NCBI GenBank assembly: GCA_964036295.1
Contig: OZ038465.1
Coordinates: forward strand, 20,456,331-20,520,330
DNA length: 64,000 nucleotides
DNA from: Plumapathes pennacea
Lineage: Eukaryota; Cnidaria; Anthozoa; Antipatharia; Myriopathidae
Reading direction: 5' to 3'
Part shown: piece by piece, positions 6,060 to 61,530 of the stretch
Numbering within the stretch: the stretch's first letter is position 1
How the letters are laid out: the number at the start of each line of letters is the position of its first letter
Notes under the pieces: model-generated
Databases searched by the model: none
What the model was told of the DNA's origin: nothing
What the model saw: the letters and a program-made list of their open reading frames with translations, nothing else
Program-made: the position numbers and the translations under genes

Positions 6060-7615
6060 GGTCATCATTATCGTTATGGTCATTAGTCTCATTATGGTTA
6101 TTACCTTTGTCGCCACTGTCATTATCGCGATCACCATTGTCGTTATCATCCACTTCGTCATCACCACGGCCATCATCATCATCGTCGTCGTCAACACTGT
6201 CAGTGCTACAAGTCGGGTGATCACTATCACTGTCACTGGCCCTGCTCTCATGATTGTCCACGTCGTTGTGCAAGTCCAAACACTTTTGCACCTCTCGCCC
6301 TGCTCTACATATCTCCTCTCCTCGCAGTTTTTGCATGCACGCTTGGGCTCTCGTAGCTACGTCTCTCGACTTTCGCTTGATAGTGTAGTTTTGCGACATG
6401 AGAGCTGTGCTTTTGGTCTTCGCTGATCGCCTTCCGTCTCGATGATTTGCCTGTAACGAGTCGGGTGAATATGCTTGCCTATAGCTTCAAACACTTGCTT
6501 CGACAGCAGGTCGCAAAGCTTGCTGTACTGCGTACCGTTGCGCGTCACCAAACGATAATCGCACTTGGGTTTCAGCATTGGTCTCACGTGTTGCTGGTAC
6601 TGTTCGATCAACTCTAGATCGGTTGGTTCCAAGAGGAGAGAGTCGAACGAATACGTTTGTGCGGTCTTGAACATCTTCTGGTCTATGAAACCTCCATTGT
6701 TTCTAGCCTTCTCTAACATCTCGAGAGTCAAGTGCTGGTAAGTCATCGGACGAGAACCCTTCACCTTCACAAATAGGTACGTGGCCAAGAAGCGTGTCGC
6801 AAATGACAGGTCGGTCGGAGAGACGCTCTTCGGTTCAATTTTACAACGGTCCAGCACTTCAGTCGTGGCAGATGATAGGGTATCACCTTTGCCAGGTCTT
6901 CCAGTGATGCCCAGCAGCCCTTCGCTTCCAGATTCTCGATGTCAAGATCCCTAGCCCACTTGATTTTCCTCTTTTTGGCGATAGTCTTTCGCGCCCGCTT
7001 TATGTACACTTCGGTCATGGCAAAACTGCTGATGACGTTCGTTGACAGACCACTGACCTTCCGGTAATCCATAAGTTCGGACATGGCTTTGAGATACGTC
7101 AGTTGTGCGGAGTAGCCTATCTTTAGCTCGTCCTGCATGGCGTCGACGAATCTACACACGAGAGCAGGAGAACCAAGGCAAAAGTCGATAGTCTGCCGTC
7201 AATTCGTCGTCGTCATCTGCACAGCAAAATCTCAGATATCGCACAACTCTGTTTGCAGTTTGTTGTGCGTGCTTTTGGGGCTTTTCTCCACCAGTGCTAC
7301 CACAAAGCCACTTCACAAAAATAATGTTCCCCTGCGATTGTAGAACAGAAATTTGATGGTGAATAGAACGCTTGCAGGTCGCGTCATTTTCCTCAACAAT
7401 TTCGAGGGTTTCGTATCAAAGTAACTGTACCAGGAATGTCTGCTGCGTACATGTTTTCTGCAACCTCTGCGCGATAAAAATCCGTCGTGATCACAGTGTG
7501 GCACAGGGCACTGGAACACGCCATCTTCGTCTTCTTCCAAGTGGAGTCTTCGTTTGCAGTCTCTTGCGCCTTCTACATTAGCCCAGTCGATTTTTCTCTT
7601 CACTTTAGACATCAC
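6060..7615 (-). pseudogene. Zinc-finger/tyrosine-recombinase-like transposase (Crypton-type?), frameshifted
   Basis: Reading leftward from ATG at 7615, the first frame (to 7313) starts MMSKVKRKIDWANV and holds a C2H2-like finger CPVPHCDHDG..HVRSRH. A second frame near 7320-7170 reads WLCGSTGGEKPQKHAQQTAN. A third (7159-6850) reads YSAQLTYLKAMSELMDYR. A fourth (6857-6430) ends in the motif HPTRYRQIIETE. A fifth fragment (about 6420-6375) reads EDQKHSSHVAKLHY, and a further frame continues KRKSRDVATRAQACMQKLRG. The R...H...HY arrangement fits the catalytic end of a tyrosine recombinase, with the final Y as candidate nucleophile. At least four frame changes make it dead. An Asp/Asn-rich tail follows to the palindrome. 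Crypton membership is inferred; it could be another cnidarian tyrosine-recombinase family. Confidence 0.7.
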
Positions 7616-20580: not shown

Positions 20581-20726
20581 GGAAACAAAGTTAATAAAGA
20601 ATTTTATACCAGTATTTCGTGTCATTTTATTGAGCTGTACAAGGTTTACAAAAATTTTACGTGTACGGCCACACCTGCGTTTTGCACATATAGCGCCACA
20701 GCCGGCGTTCCGGAGCGCCGCTGTAG

Positions 20727-21388
20727 TCTATAAAAGTCTATAAAAGTCTATAAAAGTCTATAAAAGTCTATAAAAGTCTATAAAAGTCTATAAAAGTCTA
20801 TAAAAGTCTATAAAAGTCTATATAAGTCTATATAAGTCTATAAAAGTCTATATAAGTCTATATAAGTCTATATAAGTCTATATAAGTCTATAAAAGTCTA
20901 TAAAAGTCTATAAAAGTCTATAAAAGTCTATAAAAGTCTATATAAGTCTATATAAGTCTATAAAAGTCTATATAAGTCTATATAAGTCTATATAAGTCTA
21001 TATAAGTCTATAAAAGTCTATATAAGTCTATATAAGTCTATATAAGTCTATAAAAGTCTATATAAGTCTATAAAAGTCTATAAAAGTCTATAAAAGTCTA
21101 TAAAAGTCTATAAAAGTCTATATAAGTCTATATAAGTCTATATAAGTCTATATAAGTCTATATAAGTCTATATAAGTCTATATAAGTCTATATAAGTCTA
21201 TATAAGTCTATATAAGTCTATATAAGTCTATATAAGTCTATATAAGTCTATATAAGTCTATATAAGTCTATATAAGTCTATATAAGTCTATATAAGTCTA
21301 TATAAGTCTATATAAGTCTATATAAGTCTATATAAGTCTATATAAGCCTATATAAGCCTATATAAGCCTATATAAGTCTATATAAGTC
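20727..21388. repeat. 10-bp minisatellite TCTATAWAAG, about 66 units
   Basis: Uninterrupted 10-bp units, TCTATAAAAG or TCTATATAAG, with a few TCTATATAAGC variants near 21345-21365. The first part mixes the A and T variants in blocks; after about 21120 it is nearly pure TATATAAG. Every unit contains a TATA-box-like TATAWAAG. Confidence 0.97.
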
Positions 21389-21795
21389 TAAGTGTTTAGT
21401 CTAAGTGTTTAGTCTAAGTGTTTAGTCTAAGTGTTTAGTCTAAGTGTTTAGTCTAAGTGTTTAGTCTAAGTGTTTAGTCTAAGTGTTTAGTCTAAGTGTT
21501 TAGTCTAAGTGTTTAGTCTAAGTGTTTAGTCTAAGTGTTTAGTCTAAGTGTTTAGTCTAAGTGTTTAGTCTAAGTGTTTAGTCTAAGTGTTTAGTCTAAG
21601 TGTTTAGTCTAAGTGTTTATTCTAAGTGCCAAGTCTAAGTGTTTAGTCTAAGTGCCAAGTCTAAGTGCCAAGTCTAAGTGTTTAGTCTAAGTGCTAAGTC
21701 CAAGTGTTTAGTCCAAGTGTTTAGTCTAAGTGTTTAGTCTAAGTGTTTAGTCTAAGTGCTAAGTCTAAGTGCTAAGGCTAAGTATAAGTCTACAT
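21389..21795. repeat. 13-bp minisatellite TCTAAGTGTTTAG, about 31 units
   Basis: It abuts the 10-bp array directly; the last 10-bp unit changes to TCTAAGTGTTTAG. Variants TCTAAGTGCCAAG and TCTAAGTGCTAAG accumulate toward the right end, the usual edge-decay pattern. Confidence 0.95.
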
Positions 21796-22050
21796 AAAAT
21801 TCCTTACCTTTTTCTTCTTCCTCTTCTTCTTGGAGATTGGGTTTAGGGGAGTGGGGAAAAATACGCAAGACAACAGGTTTCTTTCTTTATTCTTGTGAAG
21901 ATAAGGTGTAGTGTGTGCAAAGGTTGCCATGGAAGTGTGTTAAAGCTTTTAGTAACATGTGTAAAAGGTCGATGTGTGCTTAATAGAGCTTTTATTAATG
22001 GGACAAAATACAATACTAAACTGGCAAACAAAAAAGAAAAAAAGCAAAAA
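21796..22050. other. No gene recognised
   Basis: Spacer between minisatellite and satellite, containing CTTCTTCCTCTTCTTCTTGG. No supportable exon. Confidence 0.4.
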
Positions 22051-23840
22051 AAGAAAATGAATGACTAACTGAACGTTAATGACTAACATTGAAAACGAAC
22101 TATGCAAAAACATCCGAGGGAAAAACATCAAAGCGCAAAAAAAAAGAAAGAAAAAAAATGAACGACTAACTGAACGTTAAAAACCAACATTGAAAACAAA
22201 CTATGCAGAAACATCCAAGGGAAAAAACATCAAAACGCAAAAAAAAAAAAAAAAAAATGAACAACTAACTAAACGTTAAAAACTAACATTGAAAATGAAC
22301 TACGCAAAAACATCCGAGGAAAAAACATCGAAGCGCAAAAAAAAAAAAAAATTAAAACGATGAACTGAACGTTAAAAACCAACATTGAAAACGAATTACG
22401 CAGAAACATCCGAGGGAAAAACATCGAAGCGCAAAAAAAAAAAAAAAAAAAAATGAAAACGATGAACTGAACATTAAAAATCAACATTGAAAACGAACTA
22501 TGCAGAAACATCCGAGGGAAAAACATCGAAGCGCAAAAAAAAAAAAAATGAAAACGATGAACTGAACGTTAAAAACCAACATTGAAAACGAACTATGCAG
22601 AAACATCCGAGGGAAAAACATCGAAGCGCAAAAAAAAAAAAAAAAAAATGAAAACGATGAACTGAACGTTAAAAACCAACATTGAAAACGAACTATGCAG
22701 AAACATCCGAGGGAAAAACATCGAAGCGCAGAAAAAAAAAAAAAAATGAAAACGATGAACTGAACGTTAAAAACCAACATTGAAAACGAACTATGCAGAA
22801 ACATCCGAGGGAAAAACATCAAAGCGCAAAAAAAAAAAAAAAAAAAATGAAAACGATGAACTGAACGTTAAAAACCAACATTGAAAACGAACTATGCAGA
22901 AACATCCGAGGGAAAAACATCGAAGCACAAAAAAAAAAAAAAAAAATGAAAACGATGAACTGAACGTTAAAAACCAACATTGAAAACGAACTATGCAGAA
23001 ACATCCGAGGGAAAAACATCGAAGCACAAAAAAAAAAAAAAAAAAAAATGAAAACGATGAACTGAACGTTAAAAACCAACATTGAAAACGAACTATGCAG
23101 AAACATCCGTAGGAAAAACATCGAAGTGCAAAAAAAAAAAAAAAAAAAAAAAAAATGAAAACGATGAACTGAACGTTAAAAACCAACATTGAAAACGAAC
23201 TATGCAGAAATATCCGTAGGAAAAACATCGAAGCGCAAAAAAAAAAAAAAAAAAAAAAAAAATGAAAACGATGAACTGAACGTTAAAAACCAACATTGAA
23301 AACGAACTATGCAGAAACATCCGAGGGAAAAACATCGAAGCGCAAAAAAAAAAAAAAAAATGAAAACGATGAACTGAACGTTAAAAACCAACATTGAAAA
23401 CGAACTATGCAGAAACATCCGAGGGAAAAACATCGAAGCACAAAAAAAAAAAAAAAAAAATGAAAACGATGAACTGAACGTTAAAAACCAACACTGAAAA
23501 CGAACTATGCAGAAACATCCGTAGGAAAAACATCGAAGCGCAAAAAAAAAAAAAAAAAATGAAAACGATGAACTGAACGTTAAAAACCAACATTGAAAAC
23601 GAACTATGCAGAAACATCCGAAGGAAAAAGATCGAAGCACAAAAAAAAAAAAAAAAATGAAAACGATGAACTGAACGTTAAAAACCAACATTGAAAACGA
23701 ACTATGCAGAAACATCCGAGGGAAAAACATCGAAGCGCAAAAAAAAAAAAAAAAAAAAAAATGAAAACGATGAACTGAACGTTAAAAACCAACATTGAAA
23801 ACGAATTACGCAGAAACATCCGAGGGAAAAACATCTATTT
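22050..23840. repeat. A-tract satellite of about 100 bp, 18 units
   Basis: Each unit reads GAACTGAACGTTAAAAACC, AACATTGAAAACGAAC, GCAGAAACATCCGAGGG and AAAACATCGAAGCGC, then an A run of about 12-27. ACATCCG-type marks lie at 22108, 22208, 22310 and then about every 100 bp to 23815. The outer units are most diverged and the inner ones nearly identical. The Phe-rich open frames on the minus strand are products of this repeat. Confidence 0.95.
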
Positions 23841-29904: not shown

Positions 29905-32243
29905 CTTGCCACACATGTTGACAACATCAACTATACAAGACTCTTCAGCAATTTGATACCTGTCCAGCCCAATCATAACCAGGATCCTTGAGGGGACTGT
30001 AGAGTGAAGAAGGCTTAAATGCCCAGCACTACCCACTGATGTGGATGTCTCTCCTGTTGGAAGCCTAGCAGTGAAAATAACAGATTATGAAACAGATAAT
30101 AAATAGTTTCTTGAATTCCCAAGGGCAATGTGTACAAATATTTAGTGCAGAAATGTGTTGAATCTTGACTGTGTAAATGTTTCAATATGCATCTATAGGC
30201 ATATATATGCAAAGGACCCTAGTATATTAGAGATGACTAGGGTTAAGAGAGTCATCATGGTCTACTTTACTCGAAGCAGACGGTTCACTTTAATTTCTTG
30301 TTTAAGCTGAAAAAGTACATGTACAGAGGATATTGAATATAATAAACGGGCAAAGCTTTGTGTCTGCTAGACCACCATTACAACCTTGTGTGTCAGTGTT
30401 TGGTGTGGGATACTCAATAATGTGGATTTAAAAGGACAAGATACTATTTCCCTGGCAGATGAACAATAACATGCACACATGTCAAATATTGTGAACTTTT
30501 TGGGGACCAGCATGAGCACTAGTACAAGTGTGTTAATGCTTCAGTGCTAAAAAAAAATATATCCAACAAATAATAGATAGTTCATACATCCATTGGCCCA
30601 TCAGACAACAATTCAGAGGCCTGGGCAGCCCAGTAGTTCATCAAAGTTTGATTTAGCTAGGATTACCAAATCTTTCTTTCTCTCAACATTGAAGCTTATT
30701 GATCAAACTAACTAAAACTCTAACTTGTTCAAGTTTGACACAAATTGGCACAATCACGTTGTGAGCAAAAGGTGTCAGAACATGTGTATATTTTTCCATC
30801 AGACTCAGATGTAAACATAATCCATGACATGACATGTCACTAGGCCAAGGTATTCACAAGAAATCCTTTCAATGTACTGGTTGTTTATCAGAAAGTTGTG
30901 TTCATGAGTAACAATTATTACTACCATCTATTTGCTGGTAATGTCAACTCAACAAAATGACCAAAAGATACAAATACGAGTGAAAACATTCTATGTATAT
31001 TTGTCTACAAGCCTCCATAGTGTTTAATGACTATGTCTGGGGAATGTTATATAAACTGATGTCTGTCAAAGATTATCTTTAGAATGAAGCAACACAACTT
31101 TTTAAGTGTCCATACAGGCTGCACCGATAAACCAATGGTCAAACTGAATTTCTGACTTGACTGTCTGACCAGACGGGGTGTTGTACATGTCTGTGCAGCA
31201 GATTGAAGTGGTTTCGATAAAGTCGCCCTTATAATGTCGAAATGACTTCACCGTATTCGATCCTTCACCCATTGCTCAAAGTGATCAAGTCCCGTTATTA
31301 CAGAAACCCTGAATATCACACAGATGCAGAAAATTTGCCAGGTAGCTTTCGGGTGTAACGAAAACGAAGACCCCGAAAACGAAGACCTAAGACCCAGAAA
31401 ACGAAGACCCCAAAATAAATTAACATAAATTTACAGGGTCTTCGTTTTCTGGGTCTTCATTTTCGGTTTTCGGTGGTGGGTGTATCGAAAACGAAGACCC
31501 CAACCCAAGAGCTGTATCCTTAGCTATTTTTTCATGCATACATGAAAAGGAAGATACAAACTCTTCGCTCAAGGAAATGTAATCCAGATACCCTTGAAGT
31601 GAAGTAACACGTCCTTCCAGACCAAAAGGTGTGAAGTCAAAGTAGACATATTCCAGCATCATTGCCACAGGAGTTTGGCAAATAGCCTCTATCTTGACGA
31701 TATGCCTGTTCTCTAAACAGTTTAGGATGTCCGCCTCCTTGAAAAACAGACGTACATGACGTTCGCGTTGATTTAGCAGCTTCTTAACCAGCACGACCTT
31801 GCCATTTTTCAGCCATTTTGCTGTTGATACCGAACCAAAGCTTGAAAGGTAAAGTCGTAAAGCTTGAACAAGCAGTATGAAAGAGAGTGCCACTTAGTGA
31901 AGCTGTTGGCTATTATTGTTGGGGTCTTCGTTTTCGATACACCCACCACCGAAAACCGAAAACGAAGACCTAGAAAACGAAGACCCCGCAGATTTATGTT
32001 AATTTATTTTGGGGTCTTCGTTTTCTGGGTCTTAGGTCTTCGTTTTCGGGGTCTTCGTTTTCGTTACACCCGGTAGCTTTCTCAGATTGCTCATTAAACG
32101 ATTATCAGTGGCAGGAAAATATGTACACATGTTCGGTAAAACAACTACAGCACAAAACGCCTTCATACCTGCATTTTCTGCTCCTCAGTCTTGAGAAACT
32201 TGGCCGAAACATCGGTCAACCAACGCTGTGGACTGAAATACAG
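29905..32243 (-). CDS. Putative minus-strand gene, three candidate exons, unrecognised
   Basis: Three segments look exonic. 32169-32243 is open for 25 codons (LYFSPQRWLTDVSAKFLKTE) between TTTTCAG and CAG|GTATGA. 31102-31272 starts ATG and reads MGEGSNTVKSFRHYKGDFIE...GQTVKSEIQFDHWFIGAA before a T|GTATGG donor-like site. 29905-30064 reads SAGHLSLLHSTVPSRILVMI, GLDRYQIAEESCIVDVVNMC, GK, then |GTGAGA. The first may be 5' UTR, since no frame crosses to the ATG. The join between the second and third is uncertain: a TCAG acceptor inside the third would give an in-frame join. Composition and splice sites suggest a real gene, but I do not recognise the product. The Mutator-like element 31351-32071 lies in the first intron. 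Confidence 0.35.
31351..32071. mobile_element. Pack-MULE-like transposon carrying a kinase fragment
   Basis: 721 bp. The terminal inverted repeats 31351-31503 and 31919-32071 (153 bp) differ at about five positions and begin GGGTGTAACGAAAACGAAG. Each is built of GAAAACGAAGACC-type subrepeats. The 10-bp sequence GGTAGCTTTC occurs immediately outside both ends (31341-31350 and 32072-32081); depending on where the border is set, the target duplication is 8-10 bp. Long inverted repeats plus a 9-10 bp duplication are Mutator-like features. There is no transposase, so it is non-autonomous. The 415-bp centre is foreign coding sequence. Confidence 0.88.
31504..31918 (-). pseudogene. Captured protein-kinase domain fragment
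   Basis: Minus-strand frame inside the Mutator-like element. It starts at the glycine-rich loop (FGSVSTAKWLKNG) and contains the ATP-binding Lys (VVLVKKLL), a helix-C Glu (FKEADILNCLE), the hinge (AMMLEYVYFDFTPFG) and the start of helix E (HEKIAKDTALGLG). The catalytic loop HRD, the DFG motif and the C-lobe are all missing, so it cannot be an active kinase. The frame runs on into the inverted repeat to a stop near 31420. The hinge wording resembles a cnidarian-expanded kinase family I know only loosely. The parent gene is not in the window. Confidence 0.85.
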
Positions 32244-59000: not shown

Positions 59001-61530
59001 CTCTCGGGCAACTGTTCGCTTCTCGGAACAGATAATATCCTCGGACAATTATCCGTGCATATTTCCGAAGCCAAAAGTAGTTTATTGTTTATATATTTTA
59101 CTGATTTCATTTCTGCCTGTCATTTTAACTAAACATTAACATACGTCTGAAGGCTGAGCCAAGGTCTGTAAGCACTCTTCTAAATGCTCTGCAACACTGG
59201 GTTGCCACTGAGCAACACTGGCGAGCTGCTGTAGTGTGGACGCCATGCCTGAAGACGCGTCCATGTCCGACCTAAAAAGAAACAGTTTATCAAACGGTTA
59301 TCATAATCATACAGAAAACCTGCTACAATGTATCTGCTTGGTTGAGAGTGAACGAACAAAGTCGTCATTTTTTACCGGGTAAGGCTTAGTCAAGTCATGA
59401 ACGATTTTATTTCTGAGCTCACTCACCTCGCTAAGTATTCTGCACCCAGTTGAAAGAGGAACTTGACAGTTTTCTGCCCATGGGGCGATTCATTATTCGA
59501 CTCACTTTGAGCGACTTCCGCGTCATTACAGGACAGACTGACACCAAGATCAGACAGCTGCAGAGTAAAGGGACAAAACGTCAAATCTTACAAGTTTTAC
59601 TACTTTGTTTGCCAGTGTTTTGTATTATTTTTTGTTTTCACCTGTTGCTGTTATGATGGTCAGGTATCATAGTCACGTATGATCGTCACGTACAGTATGA
59701 CGGACGTGCAGTTTTTTTATGGTATCTTTATGTTTTTTTATCCTCTTCTTTAGGCTCTCAACTTACCGCTGGAGTGGTGCACTGCAGAAACTTCGCCAGA
59801 ATTCCAAGGGACAAACTTTTGGTTTCCACTTCGCTAGCGTCATTTCTAGGACGCAAAATCACACAAATTATAATTGTGGACACAAACTGCAACAAGCAAA
59901 ATAGGTCATTAGTTGAGATCACTGTGGAATGCAGAAGTGACGTAACTGTTAAGTCAGGCTGACGTCATATTCGTAATTTGCGGTGGCCCAGCGAGATGAG
60001 TCGTACTAGTAATTACTGTCTCAATTTCAAAGCTGGAGTCTTGGAGAATGTTTAATCTATTAAAATGTTTCCATAAAACTTGAAGTAGACAAGGAACGCA
60101 AAGGGAAATACAAATACACGAGGATATATGCAACTGTTGCGGTTGATAATTGCTCAAGTTACCTCACAATTTTAAACAGTGCTGGCAGGAACTTCTCGGC
60201 CAGAAATTCCTCTATGCCAGCACAACATCTCGTCCAGTGTTCAAGCTGGAAAGCAACACCAGAGAACAAGTTAGCGTAGGGAGAATCTGGTCTGTTTTTT
60301 ATCTACGGTCGAACCCCGCTATTTCGGAGTCCCTCGGGTAATTTTCGTATCGTCTTCGTATCGAGAGAAAACGCTTGCTACGCAGGCTTATCCAAGGGGA
60401 ATCTGGCCTGTTTTTTTATCTACAGTCGAACCCCGCTATTTCGGAGTCCCTCAGGTAATTTTCGTATCCTCTTCGTATCGAGAGAAAACGCTTGCTACGC
60501 AGGCTTATCCAAGGGGAATCTGGTCTGTTTTTTTATCTACGGTCGAACCCCGCTATTTCGGAGTCCCTCGGGTAATTTTCGTATCCTCTTCGTATCGAGA
60601 GGAAACGCTTGCTACGTAGGCTTATCCAAGGGGATTCGGCTTGACTTCGAAATAAAGGGGACTTCGAATTAACCGAGTTCGAAATAGAGGGGTTCGACCG
60701 TATTTCGAGCACTGCTTTAGCAGGAGGCTCACATACCTTTGAGTCGTGTGGCAAAATGGCCCCAAGAAGTCCAATAACTCTCTCTTGAACTGCTCTGGTG
60801 AACATCTTCTCCTGCTCTTCAGGGCTGAGTTTCTTCTTCGCCTTCTCGGGCTTGGGGTCCTCACTCTTGTTTACTGAGCCGGTTTCTTCCGTTTCTGAAG
60901 TCTCCTTGCTTTCTTCTGCTGCTGCTGTTGTTGTCTTTTCTTTGTCTGACGTCTGTTGCTCTGCACGTGGTCAGAAGCACGCAACACAATACAGTGAAAA
61001 ATACTAATATTTTTGGCAGTGTTCCATGTTTCATATCCGAGGCCTAAAGATCCTTGCACTTCACCGACAACATATCCTACACCTTACTAGAATGACAGCG
61101 CTATTTTTGTTATTTTATTAATGGAAAAGTAAGGCACTGCACCCCAAGGGGAAGGGGGTACTCAGTAAAATTCTATATGGGGAGGCTCCGCCCCAAAGTC
61201 CAAACGCTTACCCTTTCATATACCATTTCTGAAAGAAAAGGTACCCTTCCACACACCTTTCATAAAAAATGGTATTCCTTTCATATACCTTTCCGTAAAT
61301 GATACCCCTTTCATATATCTGCAGTACAAACGCTCCATCCCTTTTCTGTACCCTTAGAATTAGCTTTGCGAACATCAAGAATATCAAGCTTTACCGATAG
61401 AGGTGTTGAAGCAAAACAATATCATTTATTCAATTCAAATTATGGCGGGGATGCCCCTTTCATATACATTTAGCCTGACAAAGGTACCCATTTCGTGCGG
61501 AGCCTCCCCGTATAGTCCACTAGAGGGAGT

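Follow-up and report, generated by a model that had tools for sequence, protein, structure and literature searches.

A kinase-carrying inverted-repeat element of Plumapathes pennacea, read as a probable internally deleted copy of a foldback-type MULE with a kinase-deubiquitinase gene

Already known are animal gene-carrying elements with terminal inverted repeats (TIRs), animal Mutator-like elements (MULEs) of the foldback type, extra open reading frames (ORFs) in MULEs, Ulp1-like genes in plant MULEs (the Ulp1 domain is a cysteine protease of the ubiquitin-like pathway) and viral-tegument-like deubiquitinase domains (VTDs) in transposons. Animal Pack-TIRs include Drosophila Ssk-FB4, for which its authors use the name Pack-MULEs; like the element described here they are TIR elements with a gene-derived interior, and FB4 shares with it long inverted ends and duplications of 9-10 bp that differ between its several loci, whereas in the passages drawn on the parental copy is not linked to a transposable element (TE) and here the kinase relatives lie in transposase-bearing MULEs (PMC8277862). 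The Tm1 foldback/Phantom MULE of root-knot nematodes resembles our element in having composite inverted ends in which motifs recur, duplications mostly of 9 bp, a MULE transposase and short non-autonomous derivatives; its transposase has 496 aa with FLYWCH, whereas the one described here has ~900 aa with a SWIM-type C-x-C...C-x-H pattern, and the available passages on Tm1, in which kinase was not a search term, mention no kinase (PMC3169594).

Accessory genes beside a MULE transposase are represented by mudrB, mutB and vanB/vanC (PMC6446971) and by the Kaonashi Ulp1-like genes of plants (PMC13317346), but in the portions of these two papers used here none is a protein kinase, and 'kinase' occurs 0 times in their main texts, as it does in that of PMC13359780, likewise used in part. 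VTDs have been described in Helentrons and, in Cnidaria, fused to transposon-associated domains, with most non-viral members in Helitrons; its main text contains 'Mutator' and 'MULE' 0 times, as well as, by the search listing, 'kinase', whereas here a VTD-like domain appears fused to a kinase in a MULE, and some of those cnidarian fusions may belong to the same family (PMC9741609). In the literature searched we found no MULE with a resident kinase-VTD gene.

The window analysed here is a 64,000-nucleotide stretch of P. pennacea contig OZ038465.1; positions without a prefix refer to it, and those with a C prefix are chromosomal. The element under study is laid out as follows.

31341..31350, no strand: left copy of the target-site duplication, GGTAGCTTTC, a perfect 10-mer
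31351..31504, plus strand: left TIR, 154 bp, starting GGGTGTAACGAAAACGAAGACC and made of GAAAACGAAGACC sub-repeats
31505..31842, minus strand: kinase N-lobe fragment, FGSVSTAKW to KIAKDTALG in reading direction
31843..31853, no strand: ~11 bp between the kinase fragment and the sub-terminal block, which we infer to be junction sequence
31854..31917, no strand: sub-terminal block, 64 bp, common to many family members
31918..32071, minus strand: right TIR, 154 bp, end letters CGTTACACCC
32072..32081, no strand: right copy of the target-site duplication, GGTAGCTTTC

The element thus spans 31351-32071 (721 bp), and its two arms are 96.75% identical in inverted orientation, with 5 differences; the repeat search extends them to 31344-31504 and 31918-32078, at 96%, if flank letters that pair by chance are counted. 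Between the arms lie 413 bp, in which the kinase fragment directly abuts the left arm (31842-31505, read leftwards) and the ~11-bp stretch recurs in a copy on C5. An earlier sequence-only reading had described 153-bp inverted ends with about five differences, built of sub-repeats, an identical 10-mer directly outside both, and a 415-bp interior with a minus-strand kinase frame stopping just before the HRD loop, and these measurements agree with that description. Against Pfam, the open frame on the minus strand (31423-31893) scores 29.8 bits for PK_Tyr_Ser-Thr, over the cut-off of 23.1, and 23.2 bits for Pkinase, under the cut-off of 31.7; in the PDB it finds kinases such as JAK2 at E 3e-7. The fragment runs from the glycine-loop region to ~10 residues before the HRD of its relatives. 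Among the open frames and profile matches of the 721 bp there is no transposase, the kinase fragment being the sole coding piece seen, and the element is therefore non-autonomous.

In the 290-Mb genome, sequences within 2 mismatches of the 22-base terminus number 228 forward and 189 reverse (417 in total, several being possible per element); the reversed control gives 1 and 0, indicating that the ends are not a chance feature. A search of this kind had been proposed as a check in the sequence-only reading, and many copies turned up, some with other interiors; 18 of the listed matches are a GGTTGTAAC variant, mostly single ends, and may be another family. A second copy of the window type, at C5:14096573, has a different duplication, CTTTCTCGCT, and a kinase fragment 97% identical to the window's. 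The same piece is found in other lengths at C8:13035228, C9:2986325, C2:5685844 and C5:4171336, and several further members hold little or none of it.

For the duplications, 25 family loci were considered, of which 2 are single-ended and 3 were left out for flanks already counted (L056 and L006 are one locus; L043 and L060 lie elsewhere, with both flanks identical to L005). Target-site duplications are present at 14 of the 20 loci with two facing outer ends and their own flanks, or at 14 of 22 if L043 and L060 are included: nine perfect over 10 bp, three perfect over 9 bp and two of 10 bp with one mismatch. Left and right flanks paired across loci as a control gave none in 380. At four of the six remaining loci (L044, L047, L048 and L049) the right-hand match is an internal repeat, so that the true outer end was not found there; at L005 and L042 no duplication is present. 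Together, the target duplications and the spread of copies show transposition at the DNA level. We also observed that L047 and L048 (C1:30808791 and C1:30817361), ~8.6 kb apart, have an identical left flank and probably arose by segmental duplication, not by two insertions. L005, L043 and L060 (C11:2083660, C1:6649847 and C5:8897606) lie on different chromosomes with both flanks in common and no duplication, which suggests that they sit within a larger repeated unit.

Next we looked at elements in which the kinase relatives are accompanied by a transposase.

C1, 10262204-10271876, both ORFs on the plus strand: 9673-bp element, GGGTGTC...GACACCC, with a 9-bp duplication, ATAATATTG
C9, 12313342-12323232, ORFs all on the minus strand: 9891-bp element with a 9-bp duplication, TTACAACTC
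C8, 8208087-8212026: 3940-bp element with ends GGGTGTCTCGAAAACTAAGACCC... and a 10-bp duplication, ATGCTCGTTA
C3, 7566787-7569486: third intact transposase ORF (900 aa), in an element with a kinase gene in broken frames upstream of it

Two of these, on C1 and C9, are complete foldback elements of 9.7-9.9 kb in which the coding sequence of a kinase-protease protein precedes that of a MULE/SWIM-type transposase. On C1 the kinase ORF has 610 aa and the transposase 899 aa, and the terminal arrays, whose repeats are similar to the window's, show 94.6% inverted identity over 614 bp. On C9 the first protein is divided into ORFs of 423 aa (kinase) and 285 aa (the rest of the kinase-protease protein), followed by a transposase of 945 aa; the ends of this element are unlike in their last bases, and its right end was set where the duplication fits. 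The C8 element holds a 60%-identical kinase (C8:8208594) and a partial MULE transposase; of the C3 element the right end was seen and the left end was not found. Long inverted ends of repeated motifs are common to the window, C1 and C9 elements, and a terminal GGGTGT to those of the window, C1 and C8. With duplications of 10 bp in the window, 9 bp on C1 and C9 and 10 bp on C8, all fall within the 8-11 bp of MULEs, and the assignment to this class proposed from the sequence alone is upheld. The full element with a MULE transposase that was then sought exists in the two complete copies on C1 and C9; a full-length parent with window-type ends, belonging to the window's own subfamily, was not found in this assembly. 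We also noted in the left flank of the C9 element (L073) an open frame resembling an integrase, and the element seems to lie inside a retroelement-like coding region.

The class of the transposase was assigned through its relatives, as the C1 protein alone scores under the Pfam cut-offs (MULE 13.4 against 27.6 bits, SWIM 16.6 against 19.6). Of 21 aligned transposases, one of which (L066) was picked by its MULE domain, 18 match PF10551 (MULE) at E <=0.1, the best at 3.6e-8, and 10 match SWIM at the same threshold. In the alignment D298, D365 and H389 are invariant and C386 nearly so, which we take to be the MULE DDE and C2H signature, and C697, C699, C708 and H710 follow the pattern of SWIM fingers; by this alignment the autonomous elements carry a transposase with the MULE DDE domain. 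In Rehavkus, according to the part of PMC6446971 drawn on, the transposase has a PHD finger and a minisatellite precedes the 3' end; PHD is not among the Pfam matches listed for the C1 transposase in an untargeted search.

The C-terminal half of the accessory protein has a predicted fold like that of viral tegument-type deubiquitinases, at middling model confidence (mean pLDDT 79.3, pTM 0.73). Among 35 aligned proteins the candidate VTD-like catalytic Cys is present in 29 of 29 and the DTH His in 20 of 22 with a letter there. What we take to be the catalytic Lys of the kinase is found in 30 of 30 with a letter, the HRD Asp in 33 of 34, the Asn in 34 of 34 and the DFG Asp in 33 of 33, the C1 copy having NFG instead of DFG. 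The protein shows the motifs of a protein kinase and, as modelled, the fold and catalytic Cys/His of a VTD; any enzyme activity, ubiquitin cleavage included, is putative. Between lineages the kinase shows signs of selection; among less diverged copies dN/dS is weaker (0.3-0.55), and kinase-carrying copies within this one genome diverge down to ~40% protein identity. We hypothesize, at roughly even odds, that the putative two-enzyme protein promotes transposition through the host's signalling or ubiquitin pathways, for example by shielding the transposase from degradation or opposing silencing. In the relevant passages of PMC9741609 the authors suggest that Helitron-borne VTD relatives may keep proteins required for transposition from being degraded.

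The association of kinase and transposase extends beyond these elements. Searching the genome with the window frame as protein matched 53 places, and past the subfamily copies and an orphan copy on C10 the nearest kinase is that at C8:8208594. Within 1.5 kb of the 26 kinase loci L013-L038, GAAAACGAAGACC-like motifs occur twice or more at 16 (L020 and L022 of the window's own subfamily among them), once at 6 and not at all at 4, nor at any of five loci belonging to other MULE lineages (L064-L068). After merging of matches there are at least 65 kinase loci, which may include ordinary kinases, and at least 41 transposase loci, forming 7 pairs within 5 kb. Random placement gave a mean of 0.12 pairs and a maximum of 3 in 2000 trials, some chromosome lengths being approximate. 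In each of the seven pairs both genes lie on one strand and the kinase comes upstream. A partner within 5 kb is absent for 58 of the 65 kinase and 34 of the 41 transposase loci, as expected if most copies have been deleted or have decayed.

The kinase family also stands apart in other species. Across two protein searches, both of which scored only the candidates sharing most words, the E-value drops from 6e-39 to 3e-9 and from 1e-28 to 6e-10 between the family and other kinases. Named members come from Porites evermanni, Actinostola sp., Paramuricea clavata, Oculina patagonica, Acropora millepora, Acropora cervicornis and Holothuria leucospilota; named transposase relatives include those of Porites lobata, Paramuricea clavata, Holothuria leucospilota and Apostichopus japonicus. 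Both proteins have relatives in a sea cucumber; the linkage is seen in coral models. Of 266 retrieved proteins, 5 contain parts of both genes, with the kinase-gene part first: P0044 (Oculina patagonica), P0158 (Porites lobata), P0228 (Paramuricea clavata), P0156 and P0217, the last two of which could even come from P. pennacea itself. P0156 and P0158 have the protease half of the first gene only. These five may be merged gene models, yet they show that the two genes are adjacent. Long relatives of the window's kinase lineage are P0028 (66% over 112 aa) and P0014 (64% over 81 aa).

With the kinase relatives residing in transposase-bearing MULEs, we read the window element as a derivative by internal deletion, and consider it very probable that it is a non-autonomous copy of a foldback-type MULE DNA transposon. 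Full-length members carry long inverted arrays of GAAAACGAAGACC-like repeats at both ends. Their first gene reads into the element from one end and encodes a kinase with a fused viral-tegument-like deubiquitinase domain; their second encodes a MULE/SWIM-type transposase. An internal deletion would have brought the kinase N-lobe up against the far end. The transposase, presumably supplied in trans, would bind the repeat-built ends and move the short copy by cut-and-paste, leaving 9-10 bp duplications.

A sister copy of the C1 type, at C11:2148150-2149800 (L077), contributes to this reading, as its left array and kinase start are joined directly to the right end. It is 91-94% identical to C1, the two alignments overlap by 7 bases at the junction, and ~205 bp between array and kinase are missing from C1; the comparison covered sequence up to, not including, the left outer end. 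Judged by these alignments, it is an internal deletion of a C1-type transposon. Its cut falls ~4 residues before HRD, that of the window ~10, so that the two lie within ~6 residues, and the same route for the window's own subfamily, like mobilisation in trans, is what we infer. Two members of that subfamily also fit a kinase-plus-transposase ancestor: C4:8764778 has inside it a fragment related to the transposase C-terminus, and at C8:13035228 the kinase, an intact 127-aa ORF with a start codon, reads inward from the element end as in full-length elements.

We also observed a second set of short copies, with kinase residues 3-5 to ~182 and similar stops (2 TGA, 2-3 TAA), at C11:2148817, C1:36016769, C2:35879517, C10:7084447, C5:12852340, C1:18316966, C5:14296059, C10:12128273 and C4:15173844; the similar stop numbers suggest that this set was probably already dead before it spread.

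Against the deletion reading stand the 60% protein identity of the nearest kinase in a transposase-bearing element, the missing full-length parent of the subfamily and an end-less fragment at C10:4138513-4138929 (L039), the nearest DNA relative outside such ends (93-96%; 93% over the 31505..31842 fragment). The kinase and transposase loci that have no partner, the C1 transposase scores under the Pfam cut-offs, the unlike ends on C9, the missing left end on C3, the extra ~205 bp of L077 and the weaker dN/dS among less diverged copies also weigh against it. In the 9.9 kb fetched around this fragment there is no end motif or inverted ends, and no kinase C-lobe was seen among the open frames. It has an in-frame stop and runs slightly beyond the element's breakpoint into HRD, where the kinase frame is lost, and for these reasons it looks like a remnant.

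This end-less copy, together with window ends that differ in detail from those of C1 and C9, would also be compatible with a separate MITE family having taken the kinase piece of another MULE. We regard this as improbable, as the ends share the terminal GGGTGT with C1 and C8, have similar sub-repeats and make the same 9-10 bp duplications, the kinase has the same place and orientation with respect to the end, and a member of the same subfamily (C4:8764778) contains transposase-related sequence.

A similarly improbable proposal, which is compatible with the other readings, is that the truncated kinase has been kept for a function, for example as a shortened regulator protein or as hairpin RNA. 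The kinase piece breaks off shortly before HRD in two derivative families, C8:13035228 retains its ORF and start codon, and between the window and that copy dN is 0.016 and dS 0.070 (ratio 0.22, few changes). On the other side, pN = pS = 0.028 over 107 codons between the window and the C5 copy (again few changes), the C11 copy (L077) has 2 TGA and 2 TAA in its kinase, and kinase lengths vary among the other members of the window's subfamily. The sequence-only reading had foreseen a kinase-like product if this copy were transcribed; the element has no ATG upstream of the kinase-like part, and with the equal rates just given such a product is not supported.

Direct capture of a piece of a host kinase exon by the window family, as in a Pack-MULE, is least probable of all: the 93% identical end-less stretch on C10 that reaches past the breakpoint, and the host pieces that animal TIR elements including FB4 are known to carry in the passages drawn on (PMC8277862), speak for it, but that stretch is broken and remnant-like, the nearest intact kinase relatives are TE-borne, the family is tied here to transposon ends and transposases, and among the candidates scored the E-value drop separates it from other kinases. 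The intact parent gene looked for on the earlier proposal of a captured host exon has as its nearest intact counterparts genes inside complete MULEs, so of the suggested animal counterpart of Pack-MULEs what stands is a non-autonomous animal MULE, and host-exon capture is unsupported. Host capture of the kinase, if any, would be old, in the ancestor of the whole lineage.

If the internal-deletion reading is true, a MULE lineage would be a long-term carrier of a kinase-deubiquitinase gene with signs of selection, and a testable case of a eukaryotic cut-and-paste transposon with its own signalling enzyme. It would also be a second DNA-transposon class hosting a herpesvirus-type deubiquitinase domain, which would bear on the proposal, as worded in the sections of PMC9741609 used here, that herpesviruses got their VTD from a transposon. 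Furthermore, kinase 'exons' between inverted repeats can be transposon genes, not captured or host genes, a caution that also concerns some gene models annotated as kinases in corals.

Elsewhere in the 64-kb window the GAAAACGAAGACC-like motif has three single matches and 14 in one minisatellite. Three neighbouring minisatellites occupy 20725-21783 and 22037-23835: the first has a 10-bp unit (AGTCTATATA) in 66.6 copies, the second a 13-bp unit in 30.7 copies, and the third an A-rich 98-bp unit in 17.9 copies, to which the 14 weak motif matches belong. On the minus strand at 6360-7198, two open frames of 194 and 143 aa overlap and may represent a single protein in pieces. Finally, at 60278-60634 a 117-bp tandem repeat in 3.1 copies is open in one frame (GRTPLFRSPSGNF...).
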